Source: Hanleya hanleyi | Taxonomy: Eukaryota; Mollusca; Polyplacophora; Lepidopleurida; Hanleyidae | Direction of reading: 5' to 3' | Assembly (NCBI GenBank): GCA_036873755.1 | Contig: JAVTVY010018994.1 | Location: 1-64,000 of the forward strand | Length of the DNA: 64,000 nucleotides | In this document: positions 23,511 to 63,299 of the stretch, piece after piece | Position numbering within the stretch: position 1 is the stretch's first letter | How the letters are laid out: every line of letters starts with the position of its first letter | The notes under the pieces: generated by a model | The model's database searches: none | What the model was told of the DNA's origin: nothing | Seen by the model: only the letters and a program-made list of their open reading frames with translations | Made by a program: the position numbers and the translations under genes

Positions 23511-24735
23511 GTAGTATGGAAAGGTGAAAAGAGGTCATATTCACCTCTTTGCACTTAAACTTGAGGTGTTGGCGCTGGTGATTGGAAAGTGACCTCTGCC
23601 AGAGTTTGGCCGCCATCTTGAATTTGGTAGAAAACTTGACCAATGTGGCAGCGGCTTATTCTCTTGAACTCTGATACAAGGTCACGTGACCTTTGTATTC
23701 CTCCGTCGTGATGCGGTCATATCTGGCGGTGATGTGGTCTGCCTCCGCGGAGAAAAAGTAGTCCCCAGACCTCAAATACGCTGTATGGTCCGATTGGGTC
23801 GAGTCAGGTACCAAAGTGAAGCATTCGTGAAGGGGCATCTGATGGGCTGGGTGTGGGGTTGAAATATCGTCATTCTGCGCATGCGTCGCGGACAAAGGGT
23901 ATGGAAATAGACGTTTTGGGATCTAGGGAAGCCACTAATGGTCCGATGGAGTTGAGTGAGGTATCAATGTGAAGCCTATGTGAGGGAGCATCCACCTGGA
24001 CTAGTATCTCGGGCGTTGTCAACATTCTGCGCATGCGCAAACAGGAAATTGTGGGAAAAGGGTATGGAAATAGACGTTTTAGAGTCTAGGTGGACCACTA
24101 ATGGTCCAATGGAGTTGAGTGAGGTATCAATGTAAAGCAGTCGTGAGGCAGCATCCGCCTGGACTAGTGTGTCGTCCGTGTTCGACATTCTGCGCATACG
24201 CAGATGGAAATAGACGTTTTGTAGACGAGGTGAGCCCCTAGTGAGCCGTTGGAGTCTTATGAGGTATCGTTGTGAAGCATTCGTGAAGGAGCATCCGTCT
24301 GGATAAGTGTGTCGTTCGTCGTTCTGCGCATGCGTAGGCAGGCCGTAGTATGGAAATAGACATTTTGAGGCCGATATGGACCACTATTGGTCCGAATGTG
24401 TCTAGGGAAGTGTTATTTTGTAGCACTCGGGGTGTAGACCACGACTTTAAGGGATATCCACGTCACCTGTGACGCCACTGGTGACGTCATCAGTGGGAGT
24501 AGTAGCGAAAGCGAGAGTTTCGGAGGTGCAATGGCGTGCGTTTGGAGTAGATAACGGCCTATTTTTCCATCCAGCTACCTGATAGAGTTACCTGTGAGTG
24601 TATTCGCCCGTGTGTGTGAGTGAGTGAGTGAGTGAGTGAGTGAGTGAGTGAGCGAGTGAGTGAGTGAGGCGTGCCCAACGCCCGTCTTAACGCATGGACG
24701 CACTAACGACGGTGAGGGAGTGAGTGAGGTAGTGA
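23511..24735. repeat. left outer arm of the foldback element
   Basis: Inverted counterpart of 30,700-32,858. It carries four to five monomers with TGCGCATGCGCA-type sites (about 23,876, 24,028, 24,191 and 24,323), while the right arm has about ten, so the array copy number differs between arms. It also carries GTGACGTCATC (CRE-like) near 24,482-24,492. Confidence 0.85.
23656..23895 (-). CDS. 79-codon arm ORF of unknown status (left copy)
   Basis: An uninterrupted frame of 79 codons in the left arm has a same-length counterpart in the right arm (32,474-32,713, plus). About ten residues differ between them. It runs from a monomer across the AGGTCACGTGACCT palindrome into the terminal unique part of the arm. 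I recognise no domain. Because the arms are homologous, shared length alone does not show coding; the replacements I see are mixed conservative and not. Treat it as a candidate only. Confidence 0.2.
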   Translation of the reverse strand: MSATHAQNDDISTPHPAHQMPLHECFTLVPDSTQSDHTAYLRSGDYFFSAEADHITARYDRITTEEYKGHVTLYQSSRE

Positions 24736-25000
24736 GTGAGTGAGTGAGTGAGTGAGTGAGTGAGTGAGTGAGTGAGTGAGTGAGTGAGTGAGTGAGTGAG
24801 GCATGCGCATTGCCCGTCTTAACGCATGGACGCACTATCGACGGTGAGTGAGTGAGTGAGGGAGGGAGGGAGTGAGTGAGGTAGTGAGTGAGTGAGTGAG
24901 GTAGAGAGTGAGTGAGGGAGTGACTGAGGTAGTGAGTGAGGGAGGGAGTGAGTGAGTGAGTGAGTGAGTGAGTTAGGTAGTGAGTGAGTGAGTGAGTGAT
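24620..25000. repeat. (TGAG)n tract
   Basis: About 380 bp of GTGA/TGAG tetranucleotide with interspersed CGCCCGTCTTAACGCATGGA segments. The inverted version is at 27,285-27,318 and 30,677-30,840. A 168-codon minus frame reading (THSL)n here is an artefact of the repeat. Confidence 0.95.
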
Positions 25001-25981
25001 TGTAGCAACGCCCGCTAACGCCAATCTCAACTTTTCAACTCCCTGGTGAATTAGCCCAAAAGCTCTCATTTTTCTAGACACTAAATCATTGGAAATGCAG
25101 TGACCCCCGTCAATGACCGTCGTTACGCCCTAGTATAACGCCTTGACGCCATGATATAGACCGGAGAGAGAACAACAACAACAACAAAGATGACAGAAGT
25201 GAGAACAACAACAACAACAACGTGTTTTCATATAGTTTATTCTCCACTCTATCATAACATACCCACGCTGGGGGAGCCGCGTTGGGTATGTTTACAATAC
25301 AAGTAGCCACTTGTCCAATCAGAGGCCACCATTTGGTCCTGTCATACTCGTTCTTTCCCGTTAGATGTACTCTCAGCTGCTCTTGTCCAATCAGAAGTCG
25401 CCATTTCAGAAAGTTCTATCTTCGGCTATGTTCGCTCTGAACCGTTTGTTTCTAATCGTCATGGGGCAGGCCAGGATTCCGCTGAGGCAACATATCCTCA
25501 GATACCTGTTTGCGCATTCTGAGTATCTATCAGTGCATGGGTGAATACATTCATCCAATGGGAAGATTCCGTAATTTGGTCACGAAGAACGTAACATTGG
25601 TGACTCTCTCCACTATTCACTTGGTGTTGGGGCGCTGTTGTTGGGCCCATTCCAAGACATCCAATTGGTCCACTTGGTCCAGCATCGTCTTTAGCGACGC
25701 CCGGTTAATGATGGTAAACGGTTGGTCGTACACTTGGTTGTTACTGCTCGGGTAAAAGTATCGGACTTGGTCTGTCGCCTTATGCTGCAGCACATAACCA
25801 AACGCCAGATTTAATTTGAAGGACGTAGCTTGGTCATTGAAGATGGCTTCCACGTAGTTGCGTAGGTGGGCGAGGTCGGTCAGTCGGAAATTGTAGATAT
25901 CTTGAATAGGGCGATGACGGTGGAAACAGTGCCGTATCATGGACCGATGGCGCCGATAGATGTCACTCACTGGATGGTCTT
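25000..25981. repeat. left arm of the inner palindrome
   Basis: It reads as the reverse complement of 26,309-27,290 almost throughout: GTAGCAACGCCCGCTAACGC at the outer end, (AAC)n runs, TACCCACGCTGGGGGAGCCG, CCAATCAGA boxes and GATGGTCTTC at the inner end. The spacer between the arms is 327 bp. At about 980 bp per arm and very high similarity, it should extrude or clone poorly as a cruciform. Confidence 0.9.
25579..25970 (-). pseudogene. C-terminal domain of the foldback zinc-finger gene (left copy)
   Basis: The minus strand encodes 117 codons, starting at a SDIYRRH motif and running through FHRHRPIQDIYNFRL, FKLNLAFGYVL, RYFYPSSNN and LDVLEWAQQQRPNTK. It then meets a stop where the right-arm copy has tryptophan, a single G-to-A change. 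Homologous sequence continues for about 13 codons past the stop to the end LPIG. I have an unverified impression that similar sequences occur as uncharacterised, repeat-associated proteins in other invertebrates. No enzymatic motif is visible. Compared with the right copy it keeps 14 bases that the right copy lost, so each arm carries one different lesion. Confidence 0.6.
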
Positions 25982-25999
25982 CGTGACGTCACATCCGAG

Positions 26000-26730
26000 C
26001 TCTGAGCTCCAACTCTTTAAACGACCCAGTCAGTTAAGACGGCATCAGCGTTTGATTCATGGTCCGTCACCACGGTATGAGCGACAACTTCCCACTAAAG
26101 GGGCACCCAGCAGGGTCAGACCTAGTGAAGGTGAGCCCGGGGAGACGAATGCCACTGGTGATGCGATCACGGAGAGCCCGCCTATAGCCACAGTTCAGAA
26201 GAGCCTAGATATCCAGCCGGTCCCTAGCATTACTGTTTCGAGTCATACGCTTGACAACAACGAACATTTTCTGGAAGATGCGGTGAATGTTCCTAGCGAT
26301 CTGATATACGAAGACCATCCAGTGAGTGACATCTATCGGCGCCATTGCTCCATGATACGGCACTGTTTCCACCGTCATCGCCCTATTCAAGATATCTACA
26401 ATTTCCGACTGACCGACCTCGCCCGTCTACGCAGCCAACTTCAATGACCAAGCTACGTCCTTCAAATTAAATCTGGCGTTTGGTTATGTGCTGCAGCATA
26501 AGGCGACAGACCAAGTCCGATACTTTTACCCGAGCAGTAACAACCAAGTGTACGACCAACCGTTTACCATCATTAACCGAGCGTCGCTAAAGACGATGCT
26601 GGACCAAGTGGACCAGTTGGATGTCTTGGAATGGGCCCAACAACAGCGCCCCAACACCAAGTGGATAGTGGAGAGGGTCACCAATGTTACGTTCTTCGTG
26701 ACCAAATTACGGAATCTTCCCATCGGGTGA
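26000..26730 (+). pseudogene. foldback-borne C2H2-finger gene (right copy, broken)
   Basis: The plus frame contains the second half of a C2H2 finger (LFKRPSQLRRHQRLIH; the two cysteines are missing because the palindrome junction lies just upstream). A roughly 90-residue linker rich in P, S, T, D and E follows, then the DIYNFRL/LEWAQQQRPNTKW domain, ending LPIG at 26,730. Near 26,430-26,445 a 14-base deletion relative to the left arm shifts the frame. A related finger with all four ligands is at 34,252-34,317. The architecture suggests one DNA-binding finger plus a conserved C-terminal domain of unknown role. A short AT-rich stretch with AATAAA follows at about 27,039 and could be a polyadenylation signal (inference). 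Confidence 0.6.
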
Positions 26731-27290
26731 ATGTATTCACCCATGCACTGATAGATACTCAGAATGCGCAAACAGGTATCTGAGGATATGTTGCCTCAGC
26801 GGAATCCTGGCCTGCCCGATGACGATTAGAACAAACGGTTCAGAGCGAACATGGCCGAAGATAGAACTTTCTGAAGTGGCGACTTCTGATTGGACAAGAG
26901 CAGCTGAGAGTACATCTAACAGGCAAGAACGAGTATGACAGGACCAAATGGTGGCCTCTGATTGGACAAGCGGCTATTTGTATTGTAAACATACCCAACG
27001 CGGCTCCCCCAGCGTGGGTATGTTATGATAGAGTGGAGAATAAACTATATGAAAACACTTATTGTTGTTGTTGTTCTCTCTTCTGTCATCTTTGTTGTTG
27101 TTGTTGCTCTCTCTCCGGTCTATATCATGGCGTCAAGGCGTTATGATAGGGCGTAACGACGGTCATTGACGGGGGGCACTGCATTTCCAATGATTTAGTG
27201 TCTAGAAAAATGAGAGCTTTTGGGCTAATTCACCAGGGAGTTGAAAAGTTGAGATTGGCGTTAGCGGGCGTTGCTACACTCACCCACTCA
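26309..27290. repeat. right arm of the inner palindrome
   Basis: Inverted counterpart of 25,000-25,981. It includes the CCAAT-type boxes (TGATTGGACAAGAG), TACCCAACGCGGCTCCCCCAG, AATAAA and (GTT)n tracts. Confidence 0.9.
26731..26830 (+). pseudogene. 3' remnant of a second foldback ORF (ends PGLPDDD)
   Basis: Directly after the zinc-finger frame, a short stretch reads LRMRKQ...EDMLPQRNPGLPDDD then stop. The matching stretch at 34,727-34,790 reads MRKQLF...DMLPLQYPGLPYDD then stop. The retained wording across two separate elements suggests the tail of a second small protein, most of which is deleted here. Function unknown. Confidence 0.4.
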
Positions 27291-28590
27291 GTCCCTCACT
27301 CACTCACTCCCTCACTCCTAGTCCGGGAGCCAAACCCCAGTTTGAGCCTTGACGTGGAAATGGAGTCCACCTAACGTTTTTTGATGGATTATATATCTCC
27401 TGTGTGTGCAGATTCAGAATCCGAATGATGCCAGCCTGGCAACCTTGGGGAAATGAAAATATCCAAGATGGCCGCCAGCACATTCAACATGACCGCTGTA
27501 TATCGCTTAGATTGATCGCTATATGGAATTGAGCTATATATTTTTGGTCTACGAGTGCTCAGGAAATGGTGTATAGATTTATTAGTACTTCATACCACTT
27601 ATAATACTATCTCCAGCTTATCTCAACAGTAGTGGGGTGGAACTGACGTCATTCTGCGCATGCGCAGTAGAAAAAGAGTATTTTAATGGACGTTTTGGGT
27701 CGAGACGGACCCATATTGGGTGTACTGGGCTGTGGTAGGTATCATCGTGAAGCTCTCGTGGAGGAGCGTCCGACTGGGCTAATGTGTCGTGCGTTTTCAA
27801 CATTCTGCGCATGCGCAGACAGGGAATGCTGGGAAAATGGGCACTGGGAGGAACGCTTTGGGGTCGAGGTGGACCAATAGTGGTCCGATTGGGCCGTATT
27901 AGTTATCAGTTTGAGCGTCCATTCAATTGGATGGGTTGTAAGGTGGAACTGACTTCATTCTGCCCATGCGCAGAAAAAACGGTTATTCGAATAGACGTTT
28001 TGGGGTCGCGACGGACCAAGAGGTGTCATCGTGAAGCTCTCCTGGGGAACCATCCGACCGGGTTACTGTGTCGTCCGGTTTCAATATTCTACGCATGCGT
28101 AGTCTGGCCGTAGTATAGAAAGCAGCCATTTTTGGGTTCGTGGGGGTCTGTTGTGTGATTGTGGGACCATCCCTAGTCTTAATAGGCCGAGTAGGGTGTC
28201 AGCTTGAAGCTCTCGTGGTGTAGAGCACGACTCGAGGGATGTTCACGTCATCTGTGACGTCATTGGTGATGTCATCAGTTAGAGTGGTAGCGAGAGCGGC
28301 CATTCTGATGGGAGTGAAGGTAGGGGCTTGGGGTGGAGAAGGACTATCCGTGGTCCAAATGGCCAGTAACGAGTGCCCAACGCCGGGTGGTGGTGGTAGT
28401 GTCTGTACATACAGGGATTTACACGTGTCCCTCATCAGTTCGGGATGACCAATGGCATGGTTTTTGTTGGCAGTCATGGCGGAGCGTCCATTGTGAGTGC
28501 GTGTGTGTGTGTACTGTGTGTGAACATTAAGCTTAGTTACCCGTCTCTCTTTTGGAAGACGTTCTTTTCTGTTGCTGTAAGACAGAACTA

Positions 28591-30341: not shown

Positions 30342-31079
30342 TTAAAGGGTCAACGCCAGCCATCTTGAATAATTTTTCCTGTTATTCTTGTTTGTTTTCG
30401 CCAAATTGTTGTGTGACGTATGTACTGATTGAATTTATCCCAAATTTATAGTCAAATATATCACAATCAGTGATCGAGATCATCCATGCGACAATTCAGC
30501 ATGACATAATAACCAGATAAATGCCTCATGGCGGCCATCTTGGATATTTCGATTTCCCCAAGGATGCCAAGGTGGCATCATCCGGTTTCGTGATCAGCGC
30601 ATCGAAAAGATATAGAAACCATCAAAAAACATTAGGTGGACTGTATTTCCAGGTTTTTCGACCTGCTCCCGGACTATCCCTACCTCAGTCCCTCACTCAC
30701 TCACTACCTCAATCACTCACTCCCTCACTCACTCACTCGCCGTCGTTAGTGCGTCCATGTGTTAAGACGGGCGTTGGGCACGCCTCACACACTCATTCAC
30801 TCACACTCACTCACACACACGCCCACATACACTCACACTCACAGGTAACTCTACCAGGTAGCTGGATGAAAAAATAGGCCGTTATCTACTCCAAACGCAC
30901 GCCATTGCACCTCCGAAACGCTCGATTTCGCTACTACTCCCACTGATCACGTCACCAGTGACGTCACGGGTGACGTGGACATCCCTTCAAGTCGTGGTCT
31001 ACACCCCGAGTGCTACAAAATAACACTTCCCTAGACACATTCGGACCAATAGTGGTCCATATCGGCCTCATAATGTCTA

Positions 31080-32560
31080 TTTCCATACTACGGCCTGCCT
31101 GCGCATGCGCAGAATGACGATATTCCTAACACCCATCCATCCAGGCGGATGCGCCCTCACGTATGCATCACATTGATACCTCATTCGACTCCATCAGACC
31201 ATTAGTGGCCCACCTAGACCCCAAAACGTTCCTTCCAATGCACTTTTCCCGCAATTCCCTGTCTGCACATGCGCAGACTGTTGAACACGAACGACACACT
31301 TGTCCAGGCGGATGCTCCTTCACGAATGCTTCACAACGATACCTCATAAGACTCCAACGGATCACTAGGGGCTCACCTCGACCCCAAAACGTATATTTCC
31401 ATACCCTTTTCCCACAATTCCGTCTGCGCATGCGCCGAATGTCGAACACGGACGACAGACTAGTCCAGGCGGATGCTGCCTCACGACTGCTTTACATTGA
31501 TACCTCACTCAACTCCATTGGACCATTAGTGGTCCTCTTAGACCCCAAAACGTCTATTTCCATACACTTTGTCTACTGCGCATGCGCAGAATGACGTCAG
31601 TTTCCACGTCATAGTAGTCCATGCGGATGCCCCCTCACCTATCCTTCACAACGATACCTCACTCGACTCCATCGGACGACTAGGGGCCCACCTCGACGCA
31701 AAATGTCTATTTCCATGCCCCTTTCCCACAATTCCCTGTCTGCGCATCCGCAGAAAATATGCTTCACATTGATACCTCATACGACTCCATAGGACCACTA
31801 GTGGCCCACCCAGACCCCGAAACGTCTATTTCCATACCCTTTTCCCACAATTCCCTGTCTGCGCATGCGCCGAATGTCGAACACGGACGACAGACTAGTC
31901 CAGGCGGATGCTGCCTCACGATTGGTTTACATTGATATCTCACTCAACTCCATTGGACCATTAGTGGTCCACCTAGACCCCAAAACGTCTATTTCCATAC
32001 ACGTTGTCTACTGCGCATGCGCAGAATGACGTCAGCTTCCACGTCATACCAGCCCATGCGGATGCCCCCTCACCTATCCTTCACAACGATACCTCATTCG
32101 CCCCCATCGGACGACTAGGGGTCCACCTGGACCGCAAAATGTCTATTTCCATGCCCCTTTCCCACAATTCCCTGTCTGCGCATGCGCAGAATGTTGACAA
32201 CGTCCGAGACACTAGTCCAGGCGGATGCTCCCTCACATAGGCTTCACAGTGATACCTCATTCGACTCCATCGGCCCATTAGGGGCTCCCCTAGATCCCAA
32301 AACGTCTATTTCCATAGCCTTGGTCTACCGTGCATGCGCAGAATGACGATATTCCAACCCCACACCCACCCCATCGGATGCTCCTTCACATAGGCTCCAC
32401 ATTGACATCGCACTCAACTCCACAGGACCATTAGTGGCTTCCCTAGTTCCCAAAACATCTATTTCCATACCCTTTGTCCACCACGCATGCGCAGAATGAC
32501 GATATTTCAACCCCACACCCAGCCCATCAGATGCCCCTTCACGAATGCTTCACTTTGATA
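31080..32560. repeat. 152/164-bp tandem monomers with TGCGCATGCGCA-type palindromes
   Basis: Palindromes start at 31,100, 31,264, 31,425, 31,577, 31,741, 31,860, 32,012, 32,177, 32,329 and 32,482. Spacings are 164, 161, 152, 164, 119, 152, 165, 152 and 153, so two length classes alternate and one unit is shortened. Shared words: AAAACGTCTATTTCCATA just before the palindrome, AATGACG just after, and CTCACTCGACTCCATCGGACC in the spacer. The frames read through this array are repeat artefacts. Confidence 0.9.
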
Positions 32561-32713
32561 CCTCACCCGACCCAATCGGACCATACAGCGTATTTGAAGT
32601 CTGGGGACTACTTTTTCTCCGTGGAGGCAGACCACATCGCCGCCAGACATAACCGCATCACCGCGGAGGAATACAAAGGTCACGTGACCTTGTATCAGAG
32701 TTCAAGAGAATAA
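32474..32713 (+). CDS. 79-codon arm ORF of unknown status (right copy)
   Basis: Counterpart of the 79-codon frame at 23,656-23,895. Same start, length and end (SSRE, then stop), with about ten differing residues. See that entry; arm homology is a sufficient explanation. Confidence 0.2.
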   Translation: MSTTHAQNDDISTPHPAHQMPLHECFTLIPHPTQSDHTAYLKSGDYFFSVEADHIAARHNRITAEEYKGHVTLYQSSRE

Positions 32714-40945: not shown

Positions 40946-42883
40946 TGTAATATATGCGTGTTTGTGTCCGTCTCCAATTATGGGATGAATAGATTGAACT
41001 CCGGTATAACATGTAAATGATGACTTAGTATCATGCCAGTATGAGAAGACCCAAAACTCGGTAACAGAATAGGCTCCAGTTGGTAGGTAACGACTCCATG
41101 TCAGAATATTATCAACGCTAGGATATATCGAATCTGTACGTGTATATCAATGACGACTCAGTATGGGGAAACGATCACATCTATGTATAACGATTCAGTA
41201 CCAGTTCATGATCACATCTCCACGAGAGTGGTCAAAAGCACGAACGAATCAACTCTGTATTTCCGTCATATGTAGGATGTTCCTTATTAAGGATGTAGAT
41301 ATATATTGAATAAACATATGGTATACACATTTCCTCAGCTTCAGACTCTCACAGGTTATGCCTAGCAGTTGTAATGACGACCTATGCTGCCCACTGCCCT
41401 AATGATGGAACCCAGTAGCACTGCTTCATATACTACTAACATGCACACACATTCACTATATTCATGAGACTGTAAACTTCAAGGCTGTGTATGACATTTC
41501 CAATTAACTCTGGAAGTCGTATATCCAATCACAATTGAAGACAGATAAGAAGCATACGTGTGATGGGAGATAGCTGCTGTATCACAGATTAGCACAAATT
41601 ATGTATATCCAAGATGTAATTTCCAGAAGTAATTCCCAATATTATTTGAATATGAAGTAATATTCCACAGTATAAATATCAAAGGTATTCCTTTGAGGCT
41701 TATTGGATGATACGTACACGGCTGTAGCCAGCCAGCTATCTGCCATTACTGGGTTCTTGCTCCACTCCGGTTGGATTATCATGTGATATGATTAGCCAAT
41801 CAGAATGACGGAAATGGTCCTATCTTGAAAGGCTGGGCAAAAATAGAAACAGTGATAACAAATTATAACTGTAAATTTAGTTAACCAACATTTGCACATA
41901 CGATTTCCTTAGCTAATAGTATATAAGGAATTTATTAAATTGGTTATAACTGCTCTAGTTTACTAGAAACGATCTTTTAATTTTGTCACAAAAACTAGTC
42001 CAGGCATGACATTTACGATCCTCACGCCACAGATTTCGGGGGTCACTGCACATGGCAAAATTCCTATAGCTCACACGATAATCCAGCAAGTGCCAGTAAC
42101 CATGAACAACTGCAGACGTATTTAAAAAGCATGTAAATAACGCTTTTGATAACAGATTGTCAACTCACAGTCAAAATTGTCCGGAACCAAAGTCAAATTT
42201 ACCACGGGCAAAAACTACAGCAATCCGGTTACCAATGGTGTTGGCGAAGCCAAAGTTCATTACGCAAAATAGTTCCAAGTGAAACTTTTGTCCACGGGTG
42301 AATAACCACACAATATAACGTAATTATTTTCAGAACACTTAATTGAGAATACAAGAATAACTAATTTCCATCGAATTCCTCAGGATGGCATGAATTTATG
42401 AATGTCAGTTTGACCCAGTTTCCTTCGCCAAACACAACATGGCCGCCCCGGGTGGCGGGCCAGAAAAACACAGTTCTGACACCTCGCTAATGTCGTGTCA
42501 GACGATTATAATACACAATGGATTTACGCTATGGTGATATATAAAATGCAGACAATGTCCGGGAACTCCAGTCTCTGTCCCAGGTAAGTATATCCCGACG
42601 AAAGTACCTCAACACAAGCTTATACAGGGTTGTCAGACACGTTGGGCACTCCCGGTATGGGATGCCCTGACACAAAACATTTCGGCTCCTAAATTCCATT
42701 TATTCAGCGAACTCATTGTAAGATATAAAACAACACGTAGGCTCCTCCCTGTATGGGACGCCTAGTCCATATGGTAAATCCTGAATCACAGTGAAATAAC
42801 TGGGACAACGATCGGTAAACTTTGTACCAGTGAAAATATTTACACACAAAAAAATAAAGGCATATAGGTCCACGTATATCACA
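40946..42883 (-). repeat. 3' LTR (left, 1,938 bp)
   Basis: Begins TGTAATATATGCG and ends GTATATCACA on the plus strand. It lacks the TTTTATAGACTC-type insertion seen in the other LTR near 50,595 and has a shorter form near 42,780. An antisense TATATAAAATG and a CAGGTAAGTAT donor-like site lie at 42,537-42,591. Confidence 0.95.
42537..42591 (+). promoter_or_regulatory. antisense TATA box and splice-donor-like site in the LTR
   Basis: GATATATAAAATGCAG is followed about 40 bp later by CCCAG|GTAAGTAT, a perfect-looking 5' splice site, on the strand opposite to gag-pol. The same pair is at 51,379-51,429 in the other LTR. A promoter and donor is inference from the two motifs and their spacing. Confidence 0.3.
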
Positions 42884-42896
42884 CTCTCCCCACCTT
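42884..42896 (-). other. polypurine tract
   Basis: On the minus strand AAGGTGGGGAGAG directly abuts the 3' LTR tip TGTGATATACG. It is the expected plus-strand primer. Confidence 0.9.
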
Positions 42897-43052
42897 ATTA
42901 AAGGAAATTCTCCGAATTCTCACTGGGAGCATCTGCCTCAAGCCTGAGAGGTACACCTGCCTTGCCTATCAATTCACACAGGTAATCCGTTGACGTAGAT
43001 CGACGCTTATAACGATCCTCGTACATCTCCAATAGTTCCTCAGAAGTGTCCC

Positions 43053-44734
43053 CTATGCTGCCCAAAAATAACTGCGCCAGTTCCTGGTACTCGTAATATC
43101 TGTGTTTGGCTTGATTGGTCCCATTTCCTTAGAGCCCGCCCTTATCCCAGGGGTCTTACCGCCTGGAAGGGCCAACATATTATAATTGTCCAGGCGGTAG
43201 AAACGGTCACCTCGCTTGGATCCAGTAGCTGCCTCCAGCTGAATTGCCGTATATTCGAAGCTGTCATGCTTCTCAGCTGCGTTCCAAAGCTTCCAGTTCT
43301 TTGGTGGCCATTTGATGTCACCTAATGGGGAGGGGATACAAACCACTTCCTCCTTATCCCATGCTCTCTTCCCGGGGGGTATGTAGGGCATGAAACCAGT
43401 TCGCAGGATATGGGTTGCTCTCTGGTGGAGTCCCTGCACTGGTCGCTTGAAGATGCACCGTTGGGCGTTGATAGTGTTGGAACCCTCAGCATTGGCACCG
43501 CCATTCGCAACAACTGCAGACACAATTTGGGCATCGGATGTTTCTGGTATTGAGGACTGTGACGGGGGTCTGAGGTCCAGAGCTAATGGAGCTGAATGAC
43601 TGTTCACCTGCGCGTCTGTGTTTTGTACTGTGTCGGTCACCACTAGTTCTACTTGTTTTCTTTTAACAGATAGATCCACAGGGGCATCACCATCAACAAA
43701 CTGCTCTACCTGTCCATACATCACCAGATCTACACTGACCGCTACACCTGCTGACCTTTCCGGTGTGCTCCCAGGAGTTATGTCCTCAGTGATAGGCATG
43801 GCATGTCGAGCCGAGGCGGCGTTATTTTCCGGAGGGTCTGGACTATCAAAGGTTGGTGTGTTCCATCTCACAACCGACATTATAAATTTCCTGTCCAGAC
43901 CGAGAATCGAAGCGATGGAATCAACAGGTGATGGGCTTTTATAGGTGACGTCTGTTCCCACACCAGCTGGCCTGGAGATTGCTTTCTGTGGGTCCAGTGC
44001 GGCCAGCTTCCTCTTGAGGGACTGTAAGCTTCGAGGTTCTTGGTGAACATACCTAGATATTTCGGCCAGGTATTTAGGCTTTCCCTCTTCAGTCGGACAC
44101 TGTAACATAGCCTGCACTTCACTGGGGTCCAGCTTTAGGGACAGGAGCTCCAGGTTACCAATGGGAGAAGATTTCGCAAGATCATTCGGGCAAAAGATGG
44201 CACACTCCGGTTCATAGAGGTCCTCTAGAGGGGATGCCTGGCGGGTTTCCAGAGATGATGCGGGGGCGACCAGTCGACGAGTCTTGGGAGCCGGTTCACC
44301 CACTTCCATAGTGGATTCCCTCTCTCGGGGCTCAGGGTGGAGGGGAGACCGTGCCAGATTCCATCCATCCTCCCACTCTGTCATAGACCTGGAAGGTTTT
44401 CGGCACCTCCTCATCCAGCGCCGTATGGCAGACCTAGCCTCCACTGATGCTGCTGACCGCCAATTCGGAATGGATTTGTTGCCATTTAGCCGCAGGTAAC
44501 CTTCTGGGTTCAAGGTAAACCAAAAGGTGGACTGGTCATCAAAGAATCCCCTAGGGACATCCCTTAACTGACGGTGATGCTTTACCTCCACATGATTGCC
44601 CAGGTGACCTCACTGGAACAGAAAGGGCAGACCACCTGTATCCTTCTATGTACAGATGATGAAAGGTGAGTTCTGAGGGCACTCCAAGTGGGCAGCTTCT
44701 CAAAGCATAGCCAGCAATCGAATCGTGACGACAT
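43053..44734 (-). CDS. extra 3' ORF of the Gypsy element: two C2H2-like fingers and a PxDLS motif
   Basis: The main frame is 512 codons (44,591 down to 43,053), sited where some Gypsy elements carry env. It has no signal peptide, transmembrane helix or cleavage site. Its nominal first codon is GTG, so the start is probably upstream. An ATG at 44,734 opens another frame encoding CWLCFEKLPTWSALRTH then LSSSVH, a C-x2-C-x12-H-x5-H finger. This is followed by CPFCSSEVTW, whose matching histidines (H-VEVK-H) sit at the start of the 512-codon frame. A one-base shift near 44,600 thus splits the second finger. Further on are a basic stretch (RRWMRRCRKPSR), a low-complexity middle with PVDLSVKRK at residues 304-312 (the PxDLS form bound by the corepressor CtBP), and a tryptophan-rich end (WPPKNWKLWNAAEKHD). 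It could be a regulatory or nucleic-acid-binding accessory protein; this is inference. Confidence 0.65.
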
Positions 44735-45228
44735 GCTGAAAAACACAATGGTCTTCGTTAGATTAGCAAACAGGGGAATCTTCAGCAGTAACAGTAGACA
44801 TTATAGCAAGGCTACCAGGTTCCATCATTGGGTAACAATTGGAATAGGTCGACTGCATGGGCAACCCATTCTATCTGGAAACCATGGATTGCGAAACCAT
44901 GGAAGCTGGTTGATATTTCTGCTACCACCTGCACTCCTCAGCCTATACGCCTACTGAGCGTTGGGTACCACCGCCAGAAATCTCACAACTGCAGTTGTGT
45001 ATTTCCACATGAAGCTAGTTTCCAGGGTTGGTCAATCCCTACCTAACTTCATTCCTCTACCATGGCCATGGAATTCCTCCACAGGGCTGCTACACTTGCA
45101 AGCATATCGGTACCCTACCACAGGTGTAACTCGGAAATCGCAACCTCCACGTTGCCAAACCTCTTTCCTTGCTACATCTACCTTGCTGTACTCCTGGATG
45201 CCTCGCCAACACCTGGTCATGATCGGCT
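44735..45228. other. spacer between pol and the extra ORF
   Basis: About 0.5 kb with only short frames in several readings. Nothing recognised. Confidence 0.4.
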
Positions 45229-48200
45229 TTTACTGTGATGAGTTACGCCCTGGAGTGCCTTGGGCCTTCAGAGAGTACCACCTGGGTGGGTGGGGGCCCT
45301 TGTAGATCATCAGTCTGTCTATGTATATAGCTTTAGGTTCCTTTCTGGCAGATTGTTTCACTAGATATGTTTCACTCACTTAGCAGTGAGCTTGGACATA
45401 CTCCGGGTTTTCGAGAAGGGTTGTATAACCAGACTGCTTGCCCTGCCTGCAGTGAACTATTCTTTGCTTTCAAGGCGTACTGTCTCTTTTGGTAGACTAC
45501 ACTCTGTATTAGTTGCTTTCTGGCCATTTCATGTACATTTACGAGTCTGTCCTGCAAGTCTGTTACATATCCATCTGGGTCCACTTCACTATATGTCATA
45601 GCTGGTGTCCCTATAACAGCTTGCATAGGCATCACATTCTCTCTACCAAGGACCATGAGATTGGGTGTCTTTTTCGTGCTAGACTATTTGAAAGCTCTGT
45701 ATGCCATCATTTCTAGGGGCAGGTATTCATCCCAAGATCGCTGAGCCTTGTCACAATACACGGTCAGCATCGTCGCAAGAGTACGGTTGTATCTCTCGAC
45801 ATTGGTTCTCCGATCAAATAGACCTTCATTGGGGCTTTATTTTGCCCCTTGGCTGTCTTTCTGGCTGTACACAAGTCGCAGTTTCTACAGTATGCTTCAA
45901 CGTCACTTTTCATACCAGGCCAATACAACGACTGTTTTATTCTCTCCAGGGTTTGTTCGGTGCCCAAGTGACCAGCTGTTGGCAAGTCATGATAGAATGT
46001 GAAGACATCAGCTCTAAGACTCCCAGGAACGACGAGTTGACTGAAAGATCGGCCACCCTCGAACCATTTACGATGAAGCATGCCCTCCAGTAATTCCAGC
46101 CTATCCCAGTGTCGCCATAGAGTTTTCACTTTGAAAGATAAATGTGAAATGTTCTCCCATACTGGTCTTCCAGATCCATCCTCGAGAGCTGCCTTGATCG
46201 GTCCTATATCTCCATCTTTCATTTGCTGCAGCTTGTTTTCATCTGAACTCCACCGTCAAGCAGAACGCTTTTCAGAGTGCCAGGGGGTGACCCTTTGCTT
46301 CTGGTTGTGACCCTCACAGCCTCAGTTGAACCATCCTTCGGTGCATCATTAATCTTCTCCTCTTCATTGTTCTGCTGCTGATGACTGCACACTTTACATG
46401 GGTGTCTCGATAGAGCATCTGCGTCTGCATGGCTACGCCCTGCCCTATGAACAACTTCCAAATGGTACGTCCCTAGTTTCTGCAACCAGCGAGCCACTTG
46501 TCCTGTGGGGTTCTTCAGGCTTCTTAACCAGCTGACTGCTGCATTATCAGTACGCACTGTGACCTTTTGCCCATAGAGATAAGAGTGGAAATGCCTCAAT
46601 GCTAGAACTACGGCCAGGAGTTCCTTTCGTGTAGTGCAGTACGAGCACTCGTGCTTGTTGAGAGACTTGCTCATGTATGCGAGAACTTTTTCTCCACCAT
46701 TCTGTACTTGTGAGAGGACTGCGCCTACTGCCTTATCACTAGCATCGGTGTCGAGGATAAACTGCATTCCGGGTAGAGGATAGCTCAGAATAGGAGGGGA
46801 GGATAGTGCCCTCTTCAGCTCTTCGAATGCTGCCTGACGTTCTTCAGTCCACTGGAATTTCACACCTTTCTCTGGCAGTTTATGTAATGGCCTGGCAATT
46901 GCTGCAAATCCCTTCACGTAACGACGATAGTAGGAACATAATCCAATGAAACTTCCCTTACAAGTTGTGGTGCTGGCCCGTCCTGTATAGCAGATACCTT
47001 TTCTGGGTCTGTCCGCACCCCGGATTCTTCCACTGTATGTCCTAAGAATTTCACCTGCTGTTGGCAAAATATACATTTAGACGGTTTCAGTTTCAGGTTA
47101 GCTTCTCAAAGTATATCGAAGACATGTTCAAGTCTCTTTAAACACTAAATGAACGTGGACGCTGGCACAATGATATCGTCAATGTACAGCAAGCACTCCT
47201 CCCACTGGAGACCCCTCAAGACGTCCTCCATGAGCTGTTCGAAGGTCGACGGGGCATTAAGCCCAAATGGAAAAAATTGTAAATTGATATAGGCCAAAAC
47301 TGGTGGCAAAGGCTGTTTTTCCTTGTCTTCTTCAGCAACCGCAATTTGCCAAAACCCGGAATTCAGGTCCATACAATTAAACCAACGTGCACCTGCAAGA
47401 GCATCCAGACAGTCATCTACCCGAGGAATTGGATAGGCGTTTTTCTCTGTAACATCATTCAGCTTTCGATAGACCAAACAAAATCGTGTGGACCCATCTT
47501 TCTTCTTGCATAACACAATAGGTGATGCCCAGGCGCTGCTTGATGGTTCAATGACACCCATCTCCAACATGCGCTTTATTTCCTCCCGCTCCGTCTCCCT
47601 TTTCGCTATAGGTTGACGTCTCGGATGTTGCTTGATAGGTACAGCAGACCCCGTGTTTATTCGATGTGCAGTTCTGTCAGTCCTCCCCAAATCATAAGAT
47701 CATTTAGCAAAAACCCCTTGATATCGAATCAGTAGTTCGGCCAATGATTCACTTTCATCCTCACTGAGATGTGCTATACTCGGAGTCCACAAGTCTTTTA
47801 TGTGTTCTGGCAATTCTTTTGACACAAGCTGCTTCTTTGCATTGCATTCAGCCGCCCGAATCTCTGAAGAATCCTCTACATCATAGAAGGACTGACACGT
47901 CACAAGCCTCATGCCAGAAGTCAGTGTCACTTGCACATTACTGTGGTTGACAACCTTAACAACCTGCTCCTTTCCCCTACAGTCGATAACTCCATTCACA
48001 AGACGTATCATCTTGTCCTTAAAGAGAGCTGGAGATGGCTCTAGTAATCCAGAACTTGATGCAATGGTATATCCACCCCTACCCAGGTTACACAGTGAGG
48101 AAGTATTGTTACTGTTTCACACACTTGTACCTGACACACCATCTCGGCATCATCCCCAATGCGACACTGTATATCCCCTTGTTCTGTTTCGAGTTTAAGG

Positions 48201-48655
48201 CACTTAGAGTCAATTGTAAAAACGTTTTTCAGGAGAAAGTCTTGGCCAATAATTCCCTTGGTGGTTATCTCACATACTATCATGGGCAGCTTATACCAGG
48301 TACCACCAAGCAACACAGAAAATTCAGCAGATCCCAGTATGGTTAACTTTTCCCCATTGACCCCTTGAATTGCGTAGGTTAATGACTGCAGCGGAGGTCT
48401 GGCATTTGGGTCTATTTCTTCAAATACACTGATGGATAATAAAGTTTTTGTTGGGCCACTGTCCACCAGAAAATCAACATCGATGTCACATCCTCTCAGA
48501 TGCCCAGATGTAAACAGTCCATTATCCCATTTACCTATTTTCTGCTCTGGCTGGCCGGTGCGGACTGTACCCTCTCGACCGTGGCCATAGGATGGGTATT
48601 CACTGGCACAGATAACCCCGCCAACCCCTGGCCTACTGGGCTGGCGGGTGTCCAT
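45229..48655 (-). pseudogene. pol: Gypsy pol (protease, RT, RNase H, integrase; broken)
   Basis: Protease at 48,655-48,041 has the FLVDSGPTKTLL active-site box and a later IIGQDFL. A stop (TGA at about 47,700) separates the linker from RT (47,690-47,145). The RT has WASPIVLCKKKDGSTRFC, FNCMDLNSGFWQI and YIDDII boxes, two stops just after, and shifts around motif B (residues missing near FPFGLNAPSTF). RNase H (about 46,850-46,400) has DTDASDKAVGAVLSQ, KELLAVV, RTDNAAVSWL and HADADALSR. The integrase zinc domain (about 46,010-45,850) has the HHCC pattern: H-x-GHLGTEQTLERI, then YCRNCDLC. The catalytic core between IGEP and the helix VERYNRTL is gone (junction near 45,802). The integrase C-terminus resumes, reading YLPLEMMAYR, then VWLYNPSRKPG and AIYIDRLMIYKGP, and ends near 45,229. 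Confidence 0.9.
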
Positions 48656-48659
48656 TTCC

Positions 48660-49591
48660 CTGTCGCTCAGTCCTAGCTTGACGCTGACATCTGTTGTAAA
48701 GTGGACACTCTCTAAAAAAAATGGTTTTGTGCATTGCAGATAAAACAGGATCTATCTCTCCTAGGACCCTCAGTTGATCTCTGTGTTTGCTGCCTATTAC
48801 CTTTTTCAAGTTGGTCCAGTCGACTGAGAATTGCTTTAAGAATTTCCGAGCTGTCCATCGGGATAGCTCTCATTCCACCAACTACTGGCCCTACTTGTCG
48901 GGACGCAGCTTTCTTTTTCTCTCCCAGAAGAGCCTCAAATCTTTCCACCACATCAACTGCTTCCATGATAGTCACACAGTCTCGATCGAAGCATCTCGTC
49001 TTCATGTCCACGGAAAGACATTTGTAGAATTGGTTAAGTGCCAGTACATCTTGTGCTTGATTATCCAATCTGGGATAAGCCTTAAGTGACATCTGGCGAA
49101 GACAGTCGCCCAATTCCGCAATGGCCTCAACTGGTTCACGACGTCGTGCCTCAAACATAGATAGCCATTTGTTCTGTTGCCGACCACTACCAACCCTTAC
49201 CCTTAGTCTTGTAGACAGTTTGTAGAAAGATCGCTTCTCTTCTACGAGGAAGATCTGATCCTTTCAAGTTTGTAGCCAACATCAATGCCTTTACCCTTAA
49301 AGTCCACTGGCCCAGTTCAGCGCAGTCTTCAAAATAAGCATAGTATTCTTCCCAATCTCCTCGTCCATCGTAGGGATCTGGCTTGACCCTTAGACCACGC
49401 AATCCCGTTCGTGTAAGCTGCTCACCCACAACTTCCTGGTCACTATCATTGTCATTTTCCTACACACCTCTTCTGTTTCGCCTAGGATCTGGAGAATTGG
49501 CATCTCCCCTACCATCATAACGTCGTGACTGGTCTTTATTCCCCAAATGACTCTGTTCTATTTCACTGTCAGAACTATCATGAATTTTCAT
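48660..49591 (-). pseudogene. gag: Gypsy gag with zinc knuckle (broken)
   Basis: A plausible start is the ATG at 49,591. The frame holds the sequence YDGRGD twice (about 49,515 and 49,365), with a TAG at 49,462-49,460 between them. A shift near 49,245 separates the capsid-like start (DWEEYYAYFEDCAELGQW) from the rest (MFEARRREPVEAIAELGD, CLRQMSLKAYP). The end has CFICNAQNHFF, where a T run of eight bases disrupts the knuckle: with two fewer T it would read as a standard C-x2-C-x4-H-x4-C. Gag forms the virus-like particle core and the knuckle binds RNA (family knowledge). Confidence 0.85.
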
Positions 49592-49759
49592 GTTGATGGC
49601 CTCAGGTGGTAATCTGAGCCTTACTTCTGGATCAGGGCTCTTCTCTGCTATAGTAATTTAGTCCTGGGAAACGTTCTGGTAATCCAACAGACAAGTAAAT
49701 AACCGTCACACGTGTGCTAGTCACAGGTTCGTATCACTGGATGCTATGAAATGTTAAGC

Positions 49760-49777
49760 ATCCCACTTCTGACACCA
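49760..49777 (-). other. primer binding site, tRNA-Leu type
   Basis: One base inside the 5' LTR, the minus strand reads TGGTGTCAGAAGTGGGAT. The plus strand, ATCCCACTTCTGACACCA, is the 3' end expected of a eukaryotic tRNA-Leu with a GTCAG acceptor stem plus CCA. Confidence 0.9.
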
Positions 49778-49778
49778 G

Positions 49779-51734
49779 TGTAATATATGCGCGTTTGTGT
49801 CCGTCTCCAATTATGGGATGAATAGATTGAACTCAGGTATAACATGTAAATGATGACTTAGTATCATGCCAGTATGAGAAGACCCAAAACTCGGTAACAG
49901 AATAGGCTCCAGTTGGTAGGTAACGGCTCCATGTCAGAATATTATCAACGCTAGGATATATCGAATCTGTACGTGTATATCAATGACGACTCAGTATGGG
50001 GAAACGATCACATCTATGTATAGCGATTCAGTACCAGTTCATGATCACATCTCCACGAGAGTGATCAAAAGCACGAACGAATCAACTCTGTATTTCCGTC
50101 ATATGTAGGATGTTCTTTATTGAGGATGTAGATATATATTGAATACACATATGGTATACACATTTCCTCAGCTTCAGACTCTCACAGGTTATGCCTAGCA
50201 GTTGTAATGACGACCTATGCTGCCCACTGCCCTAATGATGGAACCCAGTAGCACTGCTTCATATACTACTAACATACACACACATTCACTATATTCATGA
50301 GACTGTAAACTTCAAGGCTGTGTATGACATTTCCAATTAACTCTGGAAGTCGTATATCCAATCACAATTGAAGACAGATAAGAAGCATATGTGTGATGGG
50401 AGATAGCTGCTGTATCACAGATTAGCACAAATTATGTATATCCAAGATGTAATTTCCAGAAGTAATTCCCAATATTATTTGAATATGAAGTAATATTCCA
50501 CAGTATAAATATCCCAGGTATTCCTTTGAGGCTTATTGGATGATACGTACACGGCTGTAGCCAGCCAGCTATCTGCCATTACTGGGTTCTCGCTCTACTT
50601 TTATAGACTCCGGTTGGATTATCGTGTGATATGATTAGCCAATCAGAATGACGGAAATGGCTCTATCTCGAAAGGCTGGGCAAAAATAGAAACAGTGATA
50701 ACAAATTATAGCTGTAAATTTAGTTAACCAACATTTGTACATACGATTTCCTTAGCTAATAGTATATAAGGAATTTATTAAATTGGTTATAACTGCTCTA
50801 GTTTACTAGAAACGATCTTTTAATTTTGTCACAAAAACTAGTCCAGGCATGACATTTACGATCCTCACGCCACAGATTTCGGAGGTCACTTCACATGGCA
50901 AAATTCCTATAGCTCACACGATAATCCAGCAAGTGCCAGTAACCATGAACAACTGCAGACGTATTTAAAAAGCATGTAAATAATGTTTTTGATAACAGAT
51001 TGTCAACTCACAGTCAGAATTGTCCGGAACCAAAGTCAAATTTACCACGGGCAAAAACTACAGCAATCGGGTTACCAATGGTGTTGGCGAAGCCAAAGTT
51101 CATTACGCAAAATAGTTCCAAGTGAAACTTTTGTCCACGAGTGAATAACCACACAATATAACGTAATTATTTTCAGAACACTTAATTGAGAATACAAGAA
51201 TAACTAATTTCCATCGAATTCCTTAGGATGGCATGAATTTATGAATGTCAGTTTGACCCAGTTTCCTTCGCCAAACACAACATGGCCGCCCCGAGTGGCG
51301 GGCCAGAAAAACACAGTTCTGACACCTCGCTAATGTTGTGTCAGACGATTATAATACACAATGGATTTACGCTATGGTGATATATAAAATGCAGACAATG
51401 TCCGGGAACTCCAGTCTCTGTCCCAGGTAAGTATATCCCGACGAAAGTACCTCAACACAAGCTTATACAGGGTTGTCAGACACGTTGGCCACTCCCGGTA
51501 TGGGATGCCCTGACACAAAACATTTCGGCTCCTAAATTCCATTTATTCAGCGAACTCATTGTAAGATATAAAACAACACGTAGGCCCCTCCCTGTATGGG
51601 ACGCCTAGTCCATATGGTAAATCCCAAACCCAGAATCACAGTGAAATAACTGGGACAACGATCGGTAAACTTTGTACCAGTGAAAATATTTACACACAAA
51701 AAAGATCAAGGCATATAGGTCCACGTATATCACA
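49779..51734 (-). repeat. 5' LTR (right, 1,956 bp)
   Basis: Same ends and content as 40,946-42,883. Differences noted by eye include CGCG for CGTG near the tip, AGCGATTC for AACGATTC, an added TTTTATAGACTC-like stretch near 50,595, and a longer AAATCCCAAACCCAGAATC near 51,625. Confidence 0.95.
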
Positions 51735-58110: not shown

Positions 58111-59333
58111 ACATATGCAGTCAGTCCGGATATTTTCCCAGCAACTTGACAAGGAACACGGAATGGGACACCGTACATTTGTTCTACGTTACACATTCCC
58201 GCTACATCATGAAATATCCGTACACCATCTCTATCTCTCTTACCCGTACGTCTCAATTTATCTCAAACTGTTCACAATACATTCTAGAATAATATAATGC
58301 ACGAATTTAAGAGTTTTGTGTAACAAAATGGCGTCTAGGGTGACAATTGGCACCATTCAAACCATAGCGCCATCTGAACATTATGACGCAAGGGAGACAA
58401 CTCGGACTAGGCCAAGCCTCTCGTAGGTCCTTATTCGCACATTTCCATCTATTTTGCTAGAAGTAAGGTGGTCATTTTTTGTGGGTTTTACTATGGGCTG
58501 TGAGGTTGTAGAATACGCTGGGGAAAAGCTATGAAATTTGTTCCGGGTAGGTCTGTATATACATCCAGTGTTCAGTGCATAGGTGCATACTCGGTGGACA
58601 TTTTCAGGTCTAGGTGAGCCCCTAGTGAACCGATGATGTCGGTTGAGGTTCTATTTTGAAGCTCTCGTGGAGTAGCATCCCACTGGACTAATGGTTCGTC
58701 CGTGTTCAATAGTCTGCGCATGCGCAGCCTGGCCGTAGTAGAGAAAGCAGACATTTTGGGGGTATGTGGGTGTGTGTTTGGGGTAGAGATGCACCGCTAT
58801 GGGTCCGAATGGGTCGTGGGGGGTGTCAAAGTGAAGCATGTGCGGGGTAGAGTCAGAATGGTGTGTTTTTAAGTGGAAGTCAGGTCAATCTGCGCATGCG
58901 CAGTTGGTTGTAGTATGTAAAGTGGCCATTTTGGGGCAGTGAAGGAAGGTATTTGGGGTCGAGATGGACCATCCTTGGTCCGAATGCGTCCTGGGAGGTG
59001 TCATCTTGTAGTTCTCGGGGTGTACATTCCGATTTGAGGGATGTTCCCGTCATCTGTGACGTCATCGATGACGTCATCAGTAGGAGTAATAGCCAAAGTG
59101 TGCATTTTGGGGCAGTACAGGAAGGTATTTGGTGTAGAGATGGACCATCCCTGGTCCGATTGTGTCGTGGGAGGTGTCATCTTGTAGACTTCGGGGTGTA
59201 GACCCCGATTGGAGGGATGTTCGCGTCATCTGTGACGTCATTGGTGACGAAATCAGTACAAGTAGTAGCGAAAGTGAGCATTTTGAGGCAGTGCAGGAAG
59301 GTATTTGGTGTAGAGATAGACCATCCATATCTG

Positions 59334-59650
59334 TCATGCATTATACCAAATCTGTGCTGTATTATACCATATCTGTCCTGAATTATACCATATCTGTGCT
59401 GTATTATACCATATCTGTATAATACAAGACAGATTTGGTATAATACAGGACATATATGGTATAATAGAGGGCAAATATTGTATAATACAGAACATATATT
59501 GTAAAATACAGGACATATGGTACAATACAGTATAGATATGCTATAATACAGCACAGATTTGGTATAATAAAGGACAGATACTGTATAATACAGGACAGAT
59601 TTGGTATAATACAGGACATATATGGTATAATAGAGGACAAATATTGTACA
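59334..59650. repeat. 21-bp satellite (GGTATAATACAGGACAGATAT)
   Basis: About four units in one orientation (59,334-59,418), then about eleven in the opposite orientation. The continuation is at 61,141-61,293. The period of 21 keeps frames open on both strands (YTKSVLY-type heptads), so the long frames here are artefacts. Confidence 0.9.
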
Positions 59651-61140: not shown

Positions 61141-62190
61141 GATTTGGTATAATGCATATACAGACTTGGTATAATACAGACAGATATTGTATAACACAGG
61201 ACAGATATGGTATAATACAGCACAGATATGGTATAATTCAGGACAGATATGGTATAATACAGCACAGATTTGGTATAATGCATGACAGATATGGATGGTC
61301 TATCTCTACACCAAATACCTTCCTGCACTGCCCCAAAATGCTAACTTTCGCTACTACTTGTACTGATTTCGTCACCAATGACGTCACCGATGACGCGAAC
61401 ATCCCTCAAATCGGGGTCTACACCCCGAAGGCTACAAGATGACACCTCCCACGACACAATCGGACCAGGGATGGTCCATCTCTACACCAAATACCTTCCT
61501 GTACTGCCCCAAAATGCACACTTTGGCTACTACTCCTACTGATGACGTCATCGATGACGTCACAGATGACGGGAACATCCCCCAAATCGGAATGTACACC
61601 CCGAGAACTACAAGATGACACCACCCAGGACGCATTCGGACCAAGGATGGTCCATCTCGACCCCAAATACCTTCCTTCACTGCCCCAAAATGGCCACTTT
61701 ACATACTACAACCAACTGCGCATGCGCAGATTGACGCGACTTGCACTTAAAAACACACCATTCTGACTCTACCCTGCACAAGCTTCACTTTGACACCTCT
61801 CACGACCCATTCGGGCCCATAGCGGTGCATCTCTACCCCAAACACACACCCACATACCCCCAAAAATGTCTGCTTTCTCTACTACGGCCAGGCTGCGCAT
61901 GCGCAGACTATTGAACACGGACGAACCATTAGTCCAGTGGGATGCTACTCCACGAGAGCTTCAAAATAAGACCTCAACCGACATCATCGGTTCACTAGGG
62001 GCTCACCTAGACCTGAAAATGTCCACCGAGTATGCACCTATGCACTGAACACTGGATGTATATACAGACCTACCCGGAACAAATTTCATAGCTTTTCCCC
62101 AGCGTATTCTACAACCTCACAGCCCATAGTAAAACCCACCAAAAATGACCACCCCTACTTCTAGCAAAATAGATGGAAATGTGCGAATAA

Positions 62191-63232: not shown

Positions 63233-63299
63233 CGCCATGTTGTACCAAAATATTGTGTACAAGATGGCGGATGTGTACAAGATGGCGGATCCCTGACTG

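Follow-up and report, generated by a model that had tools for sequence, protein, structure and literature searches.

An accessory gene in the env position of a molluscan Gypsy-type retrotransposon lineage encodes two C2H2 fingers and a putative CtBP-docking motif

A Gypsy-type LTR retrotransposon in the genome of the mollusc Hanleya hanleyi carries an additional gene, ORF3, between its integrase and its 3′ LTR, the position of env. ORF3 begins with two C2H2 zinc fingers, has a PxDLS-type motif of the kind docked by the corepressor CtBP in its middle, and ends in a conserved domain. The element was found in a stretch of 64,000 nucleotides (contig JAVTVY010018994.1, positions 1 to 64,000), hereafter called the window, for which a first-pass annotation had proposed that the extra frame resembles a transcriptional regulator, an interpretation supported by the sequence comparisons described below. 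The frame itself is real, and the case for it is stronger than the first-pass annotation could see. We consider it slightly better than an even bet that ORF3 is an accessory gene proper, under selection in a diverse lineage of Gypsy-type elements, and that its product would serve as a nuclear adaptor, which binds DNA through its fingers, docks CtBP and thereby sets the transcription of its own element.

Results

Architecture of the element

The element occupies positions 40946 to 51734 and, like all of its parts given here, lies on the minus strand. Self-alignment of the window and reading of the ends delimited a 5′ LTR (49779–51734) and a 3′ LTR (40946–42883) of about 1.95 kb each, which are 97.3% identical across 1956 aligned positions, start with TGTGATATAC, end with TATTACA, and are flanked by an ATAC target duplication (51738–51735 and 40945–40942). 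A putative primer binding site (49760–49777), so called from its position, adjoins the 5′ LTR. Position likewise suggests a gag role for an open frame at 49187–49459, which had no Pfam match above cut-off, and it is followed by a SCAN-like gag piece at 48712–49263 (PF02023, E 8.6e-4, 19.5 bits, below the cut-off of 27). The pol pieces are an aspartyl protease (48041–48751; PF13650, E 1.1e-5, above cut-off), a reverse transcriptase (47145–47699; PF00078, E 1.8e-13), an RNase H (46219–47076; PF17919, E 1.4e-35, and PF17917, E 4.8e-32), the N-terminal zinc-binding part of an integrase (45764–46255; PF17921, E 1.9e-22) and its C-terminal part (45372–45683), the last of which had no Pfam match and aligns to integrase-like frames upstream of ORF3 in related loci. 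The polypurine tract GGTGGGGAGAG (42884–42894) stands immediately past the stop codons of ORF3 and before the 3′ LTR. Paired LTRs with TG...CA ends and a short target duplication, as read in the window copy, together with the order protease, reverse transcriptase, RNase H and integrase given by the coordinates of the pieces, identify a Ty3/Gypsy (Metaviridae-type) element. Since the gag and pol pieces are spread over several frames, the window copy is broken in these genes, as it also is in ORF3. The Troyka superfamily was considered and rejected, because its termini are CG...CG and its duplications 3 bp long in the available part of its description, whereas the present element has TG...CA termini and a 4-bp duplication.

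About 600 nt between the integrase frames and ORF3 (44756–45371) contain no long minus-strand frame, and splice or export signals could conceivably lie there. Elsewhere in the window, inverted repeat arms of about 1 kb were observed at 58431–59418 and 61201–62190 (97.8% identity, 1.8 kb apart), with a similar inverted pair at 24962–25984 and 26308–27317 (95.6% identity); both pairs are possibly palindromic mobile elements. A family of diverged tandem-like repeats was present on both strands at 23785–24513, 27632–28356, 30913–32584, 58597–59326, 61293–62022 and 63299–63689. Rfam matched nothing in the window.

ORF3 in the window copy and in its sister copies

From ATG to stop, ORF3 extends over 42898–44734. 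Its ATG (44734–44732) coincides with the end coordinate that the first-pass annotation had given for the region, and its stop (42900–42898) comes directly before the polypurine tract. The reading frame is broken in finger 2 and near position 43155. Its longest open part has 518 codons (43053–44609), in agreement with the earlier description of a frame exceeding 500 codons in the env position, and in 300 trials of shuffling the same 1557 bases the longest frame in any of the six frames did not exceed 252 aa. Finger 1 (44648–44716; C-x2-C-x12-H-x5-H) lies in a frame different from that of the long frame, and finger 2 (44577–44629) is divided between two frames, as had been noted when two C2H2-like fingers, the second split, were described at the gene start. 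The motif PVDLSVKRK, a CtBP-type box followed by basic residues, was located at 43656–43682, with PVDLS at 43682–43668. The start of the C-terminal domain (43155–43427; WDKEE...WPPxxWK...YNMLALPG) shows 55% and 44% identity to two related proteins, P0001 and P0002, introduced below. The last 53 or so codons of ORF3 are frameshifted in the window copy and had been overlooked; they form a tail in another frame (42901–43059; ...GVPLRLEAD...), which recurs in P0001 and is of RLE type in 11 subfamilies.

The window's own assembly (GCA_036873755.1; 2.48 Gb in 52,793 contigs) was searched with the long frame as DNA, giving 46 match rows, 44 of which are represented by the 38 stretches that were fetched, two short rows being omitted. 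The frame is present in these sister copies and reads for at least 577 aa from the conserved ATG in 14 of the 38. Both fingers were in one frame in 31 of the 34 copies covering the finger region, the window copy being among the three without, and finger 2 was in one frame in 32. Among the 32 copies that cover the box, PVDLS occurred in 28 (in any frame), SVDLS in 3 and neither in 1. Frame, fingers and box are thus kept among the sister copies, and open versions of ORF3 exist.

Relatives of ORF3 and its subfamilies in the genome

A protein search with the window frame returned one match, P0001 (534 aa, on a 2783-base contig; E 2.6e-52), with 31% identity over 93% of the window frame. P0001 shares the C-terminal domain of ORF3, and its two fingers lie together in a single frame. 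Used as a query, P0001 gave one further match, P0002, a hypothetical C2H2 protein of the mussel Sinanodonta woodiana (E 1.3e-39), which carries PLDLS and lacks the middle of its second finger, perhaps by a fault of the gene model. The mussel sequence may belong to a copy of the element or to a host gene that descends from such a copy. No additional proteins were found with a profile built from the three sequences; in this search and in that with the window frame, scoring was confined to the approximately 8000 candidates with the most shared words, so that some relatives may have escaped detection. No ORF3 relatives were found in the viral-contig and genome-contig collections scanned. Pfam, NCBIfam and PHROGs (six proteins each for the latter two) gave no family beyond C2H2, a single DUF match being discarded as chance level. 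With respect to a known gag, env or captured gene that might explain the frame, no homology was found beyond C2H2 matches, most of them weak.

In the same genome, P0001 gave at least 118 match rows (39–60% identity) and P0002 at least 121 (28–44% identity), many of them in open frames of about 580–700 aa, with some places common to both queries. Rows were fetched by score and frame length before their middles were read, and represent a selection of all rows. We retained frames of 560 aa or longer whose start satisfied our rule; this excluded shorter frames and four loci with no start codon fitting the rule, and the 38 distinct frames that remained formed 11 in-genome clusters at 65% identity. 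The genome contains at least 11 ORF3 subfamilies, the ten others having open frames of 569–669 aa. One sequence from each cluster was aligned with P0001 and P0002, giving 13 representatives that are 28–45% identical to that of the window family; in three of them the start rule took a later Met, which shifts the start of the middle region by some residues and leaves the boxes in place.

ORF3 is under purifying selection. Mean dN/dS among open copies was 0.247, 0.270, 0.247, 0.227 and 0.266 in the five clusters with at least two members, values that may be biased slightly downward by the choice of open copies. In the four largest clusters pN/pS was 0.11–0.20 for the first 125 residues, 0.26–0.46 for the middle and 0.14–0.30 for the C-terminal part, and the first 125 residues were the most constrained region in three of these four. 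The broken state of the window copy is what would be expected of a chance frame or of a recently captured host exon without function; however, such an origin is made very improbable by a dN/dS of about 0.25, by the number of diverged subfamilies (11 or more in this genome) and by the occurrence of relatives in other sources of sequence. An ancient capture of host fingers is a possible source of the gene.

Two conserved C2H2 fingers

Over the 13 aligned sequences, C7, C10, H23, H29, C36, C39 and H59 are invariant and H54 is nearly so. Both fingers are present in all 11 subfamilies, with paired Cys and His ligands at C2H2 spacing: finger 1 reads C-x2-C-x12-H-x5-H in 10 of them, the eleventh having two extra residues before the last His, and finger 2 reads C-x2-C-x11 to 15-H-x4-H in all 11. 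Ten sequences were scanned against the Pfam finger families, and zf-C2H2 was above cut-off in L054 (27.6 vs 25.2) and zf-C2H2_4 in L099 (27.7 vs 27), while six had matches below cut-off and two (L087 and L097) had none at E 0.05. The best matches of the family profile were to CTCF (E 1.5e-4) and Tramtrack (E 3.1e-3), in both cases to tandem fingers that bind DNA.

The main alternative that needs no CtBP is a CERV- or Rev-like accessory protein, whose fingers would bind the element's RNA and aid its export or packaging, the box being secondary. CERV of the Caenorhabditis elegans element Cer1 occupies the same position, is made from a spliced mRNA, is nuclear and is required for export of the genomic RNA, and it may contain a C4-type, RNA-binding zinc finger, according to the available text of PMC10309623. 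Additionally, finger 1 of one ORF3 subfamily resembles the dsRNA-binding JAZ finger, a weak match below cut-off (E 0.004). Against an RNA role, the best matches of the family profile are DNA-binding fingers, and the recurrent box would be left unexplained; we judge this role unlikely. Under the reading that we prefer, the two N-terminal fingers would hold ORF3 on DNA.

A recurrent CtBP-type box in a variable middle region

The middle region, flanked by the N-terminal block on one side and the C-terminal domain on the other, contains P[LVIMA]DL[ST] in 9 of the 13 representatives, against an expectation of 0.4–1.5% for each from shuffled middles. Literal PxDLS also occurs in 9 of 13 (0.205 expected), a count that includes PGDLS in P0001, while L091 has PLDLT instead. 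The strict form is missing from three in-genome subfamilies and P0001, which have PLNLA and PLNLC (P0001), VLDLS and AFDLT (L087), PLDLC (L094) and ALDLS (L099). A wider core, [PAV][LVIMAF][DN]L[STAC], is found in all 13 representatives (0.57 expected; maximum 4 in 2000 shuffles), a figure that is partly after the fact since the core was set after these four exceptions had been seen. ALDLS and VLDLS are CtBP sites of EBNA3A according to the accessible part of PMC2883600. In a scan of all three-residue patterns over the 13 representatives, LDL was found in 12 (1.18 expected), DLS in 11 (1.77) and P.DL in 11 (1.78), and many of the patterns ranking beside or above these derived from a W..GW block that is conserved at the margin of this region. 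An earlier motif test on three sequences, with an ELM-like pattern, was weak (chance of a match 0.14 and 0.12 in two of them, and 0.0095 for the two matches of the third), and the case rests on the 13 representatives.

Within subfamilies the box evolves no more slowly than much of its surroundings, its pN being matched or beaten by 23–92% of five-residue windows of the middle in a test of low power, so that the support for the box lies in its recurrence between subfamilies. In short, the surrounding sequence turns over, whereas the box itself is retained or built anew. As far as structure is concerned, AlphaFold models were of low confidence (mean pLDDT 32.8 and 59.3) and gave no regular secondary structure for P0001 residues 181–360; the putative disorder of the middle, in which these PxDLS-class motifs lie, thus rests on composition and on the lack of predicted structure at very low confidence. 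From the motif we infer that ORF3 binds CtBP, and one PxDLS-type motif is enough for docking in the part of PMC11187106 available to us.

The host appears to have the partner, with CtBP-like exons in its genome. Among 24 places with a dehydrogenase domain, one contig (C23641) has two exon-like pieces whose best PDB matches are CtBP1 and CtBP2 chains (E 3.2e-17 and 3.6e-22), while six pieces at other such places did not resemble CtBP, as judged by eye. CtBP complexes contain HDACs, methyltransferases and LSD1, as described in the available portion of PMC4056533.

Binding of CtBP might also serve to inactivate it, ORF3 acting as a decoy that captures CtBP, either by itself or by using repeated motifs to cross-link it. 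Host silencing would thereby be relieved, to the direct benefit of the element. Several representatives have two or three boxes, whose starts are 13–36 residues apart where measured, and the host protein RAI2, in which a linker of 21 residues joins two ALDLS motifs, causes CtBP to polymerise and inactivates it (PMC11187106, in part). Similarly, E1A disrupts the CtBP-CtIP interaction and EBNA3C can interfere with CtBP repression, according to the available text of PMC11209466. However, even when the wider pattern is applied, 6 of the 11 representatives from the genome show just one box, and a pure decoy has no need of two strongly conserved fingers. We therefore regard the decoy as rather unlikely, and prefer recruitment of CtBP to DNA.

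The C-terminal domain

The conserved C-terminal domain is marked by WDKEE, WPPxxWK, LDKYNMLALPG and LRLE (e.g. residues 445–606 or so in L023), and had no Pfam match and, in a profile search, no PDB sequence match at E 1. It may have a role as important as that of the fingers, and would provide another contact, perhaps for self-association or with a component of the element. ORF3 might also be an integration tether, attaching the integration complex to chromatin that bears either CtBP or the target of the fingers. Element-encoded parts that guide integration are found in other Gypsy lineages, where they are chromodomains, and the C-terminal domain could conceivably contact element proteins. 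ORF3 is, however, a separate and probably spliced gene, not a part of the integrase, and we consider a tether improbable.

Genomic context and expression

Integrase was found upstream of ORF3 in all six subfamilies examined, namely the window family and five others, four by alignment to the window integrase pieces and two by reading the upstream frame. By locus, 42 of 64 matched the window integrase pieces, some of the 64 being the same place twice. Of the 22 unmatched loci, 16 had at most about 250 bases upstream and 3 were at a contig end, leaving L070, L074 and L085, whose upstream flank was present with no integrase match at E 1e-5. Downstream, a purine tract and TG were found within 75 bases past the stop in L023, L064, L094 and L098, and were not seen within that distance in the remaining subfamilies.

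A splice-acceptor-like sequence (44736–44755), a signal read from the letters only, ends one base before the ATG in the window, its AG ranking 7th of 186 AG sites by a crude score. TTTTTCAGCATG, which joins the acceptor-like end to the start codon, is present in 32 of the 38 family copies. In the 11 subfamilies an AG lies 1 nt (10) or 4 nt (1) before the ATG, preceded by a pyrimidine-rich stretch (10–13 of 16 bases), and an in-frame stop occurs 21–111 nt upstream of the ATG in every one. A search for a splice donor gave two weak candidates and no convincing one. Given the upstream stop and the acceptor-like AG, ORF3 does not simply carry on from pol, and its message is most naturally read as spliced; as with env, the most likely template for expression is a spliced subgenomic RNA.

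The position and the env-like acceptor could also be taken to indicate an envelope or entry protein, as could the hydrophobic N-terminus of the P0001 gene model (KD 1.71). However, no 19-residue window exceeds a Kyte-Doolittle value of 1.2 in the window frame, in P0001 from the aligned Met or in P0002, and in all 11 subfamilies the in-frame stop lies upstream of the ATG. Hydropathy of these three sequences showed no signal peptide, transmembrane anchor or fusion domain, and no Pfam env family was matched. The first-pass annotation had likewise seen no envelope traits, and an envelope function can practically be dismissed.

Discussion

We propose that ORF3 is located in the nucleus, where its two fingers would hold it on DNA and its putatively disordered middle, with one to three PxDLS-type motifs, would dock the host CtBP. 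Its most likely action would be to deliver CtBP complexes to selected DNA sites, of which the LTR of its own element is the simplest candidate, and thereby to set the timing of element transcription. The element might in this way repress itself or be protected, or CtBP might be drawn away from host silencing, the last of which is permitted by the subfamilies with several boxes. Self-limiting elements are expected to be out-competed, as argued in the portion of PMC5408684 at hand, which speaks against plain self-repression by ORF3.

Accessory ORF3s in LTR elements and viral hijacking of CtBP are already known separately. CERV of Cer1, a Gypsy/Ty3 element, is like ORF3 in being a large nuclear protein unlike env, encoded in the env position by a spliced mRNA whose acceptor reads TTTCAG. 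It differs in its lack of obvious homology outside Caenorhabditis, its role in RNA export and a possible finger that is not C2H2, and the words CtBP, PxDLS and C2H2 are absent from the main text describing it (PMC10309623, available in part). ORF3s of bdelloid rotifers are also family-specific, unlike env, located between pol and the 3′ LTR and expressed from spliced messages. They encode GDSL esterases, DEDDy nucleases and transmembrane or coiled-coil proteins, however, with no mention of zinc fingers in the main text, and showed no significant departure from neutrality, in contrast to the present ORF3 (PMC5408684, in part). Plant elements may have an extra sense ORF between pol and the 3′ LTR, with splicing reported for Bagy2, but the sense ORFs are described as env-like, and the main text of PMC7264820 uses neither the term zinc finger nor the term transcription factor, as far as that source was available.

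With respect to CtBP, adenovirus E1A, EBNA3A and EBNA3C of EBV and Meq of Marek's virus dock it through PLDLS, ALDLS or VLDLS (accessible parts of PMC2883600 and PMC11209466). These proteins belong to DNA viruses and are likened to ORF3 by the motif. To our knowledge, none of them has a double C2H2 domain like that of ORF3. Among host proteins, KLF3 and other repressors combine zinc fingers with recruitment of CtBP, and KLF3 silences an LTR family (PMC4056533, in part), whereas RAI2 shares with ORF3 disorder and tandem CtBP motifs but is a host protein without a folded domain that inactivates CtBP (PMC11187106, in part). KLF3 is a host gene directed against an element, whereas in the present case the factor is encoded by the element. 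The VANDALs of Arabidopsis are DNA transposons. Their protein VANC resembles ORF3 as proposed here in that the element encodes a regulator acting on its own chromatin in a sequence-specific manner, and differs in that VANC counteracts silencing through loss of DNA methylation and acts in a plant, the abstract making no mention of CtBP (PMC5735166, in part).

The combination of an ORF3 with a CtBP box was not described among the best matches listed from the open-access literature, where PxDLS together with retrotransposon led only to the host protein Wiz, and the words env and ORF3 are absent from the main text of a survey of mollusc LTR elements (PMC6238403). The present gene thus adds a kind of accessory ORF3 for which the open-access literature searched gave no description. 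That an ancient, diverse and probably animal Gypsy lineage encodes its own E1A-like or KLF3-like regulator, with a double C2H2 domain, an env-like spliced RNA and a quickly rebuilt PxDLS box through which CtBP would be engaged either to set the chromatin of the LTR or to disarm host silencing, is in our estimation somewhat likelier true than false.

Unexplained ORFs in the env position are common in LTR elements, and the parts of this one point to a testable mechanism, pairing fingers of DNA-binding type with a probable site for docking a corepressor that is widespread in animals. If this is true, hijacking of CtBP would extend from DNA viruses to LTR retroelements, and the many diverged versions of ORF3 in one genome would represent a natural experiment in how an element tunes or evades chromatin silencing.
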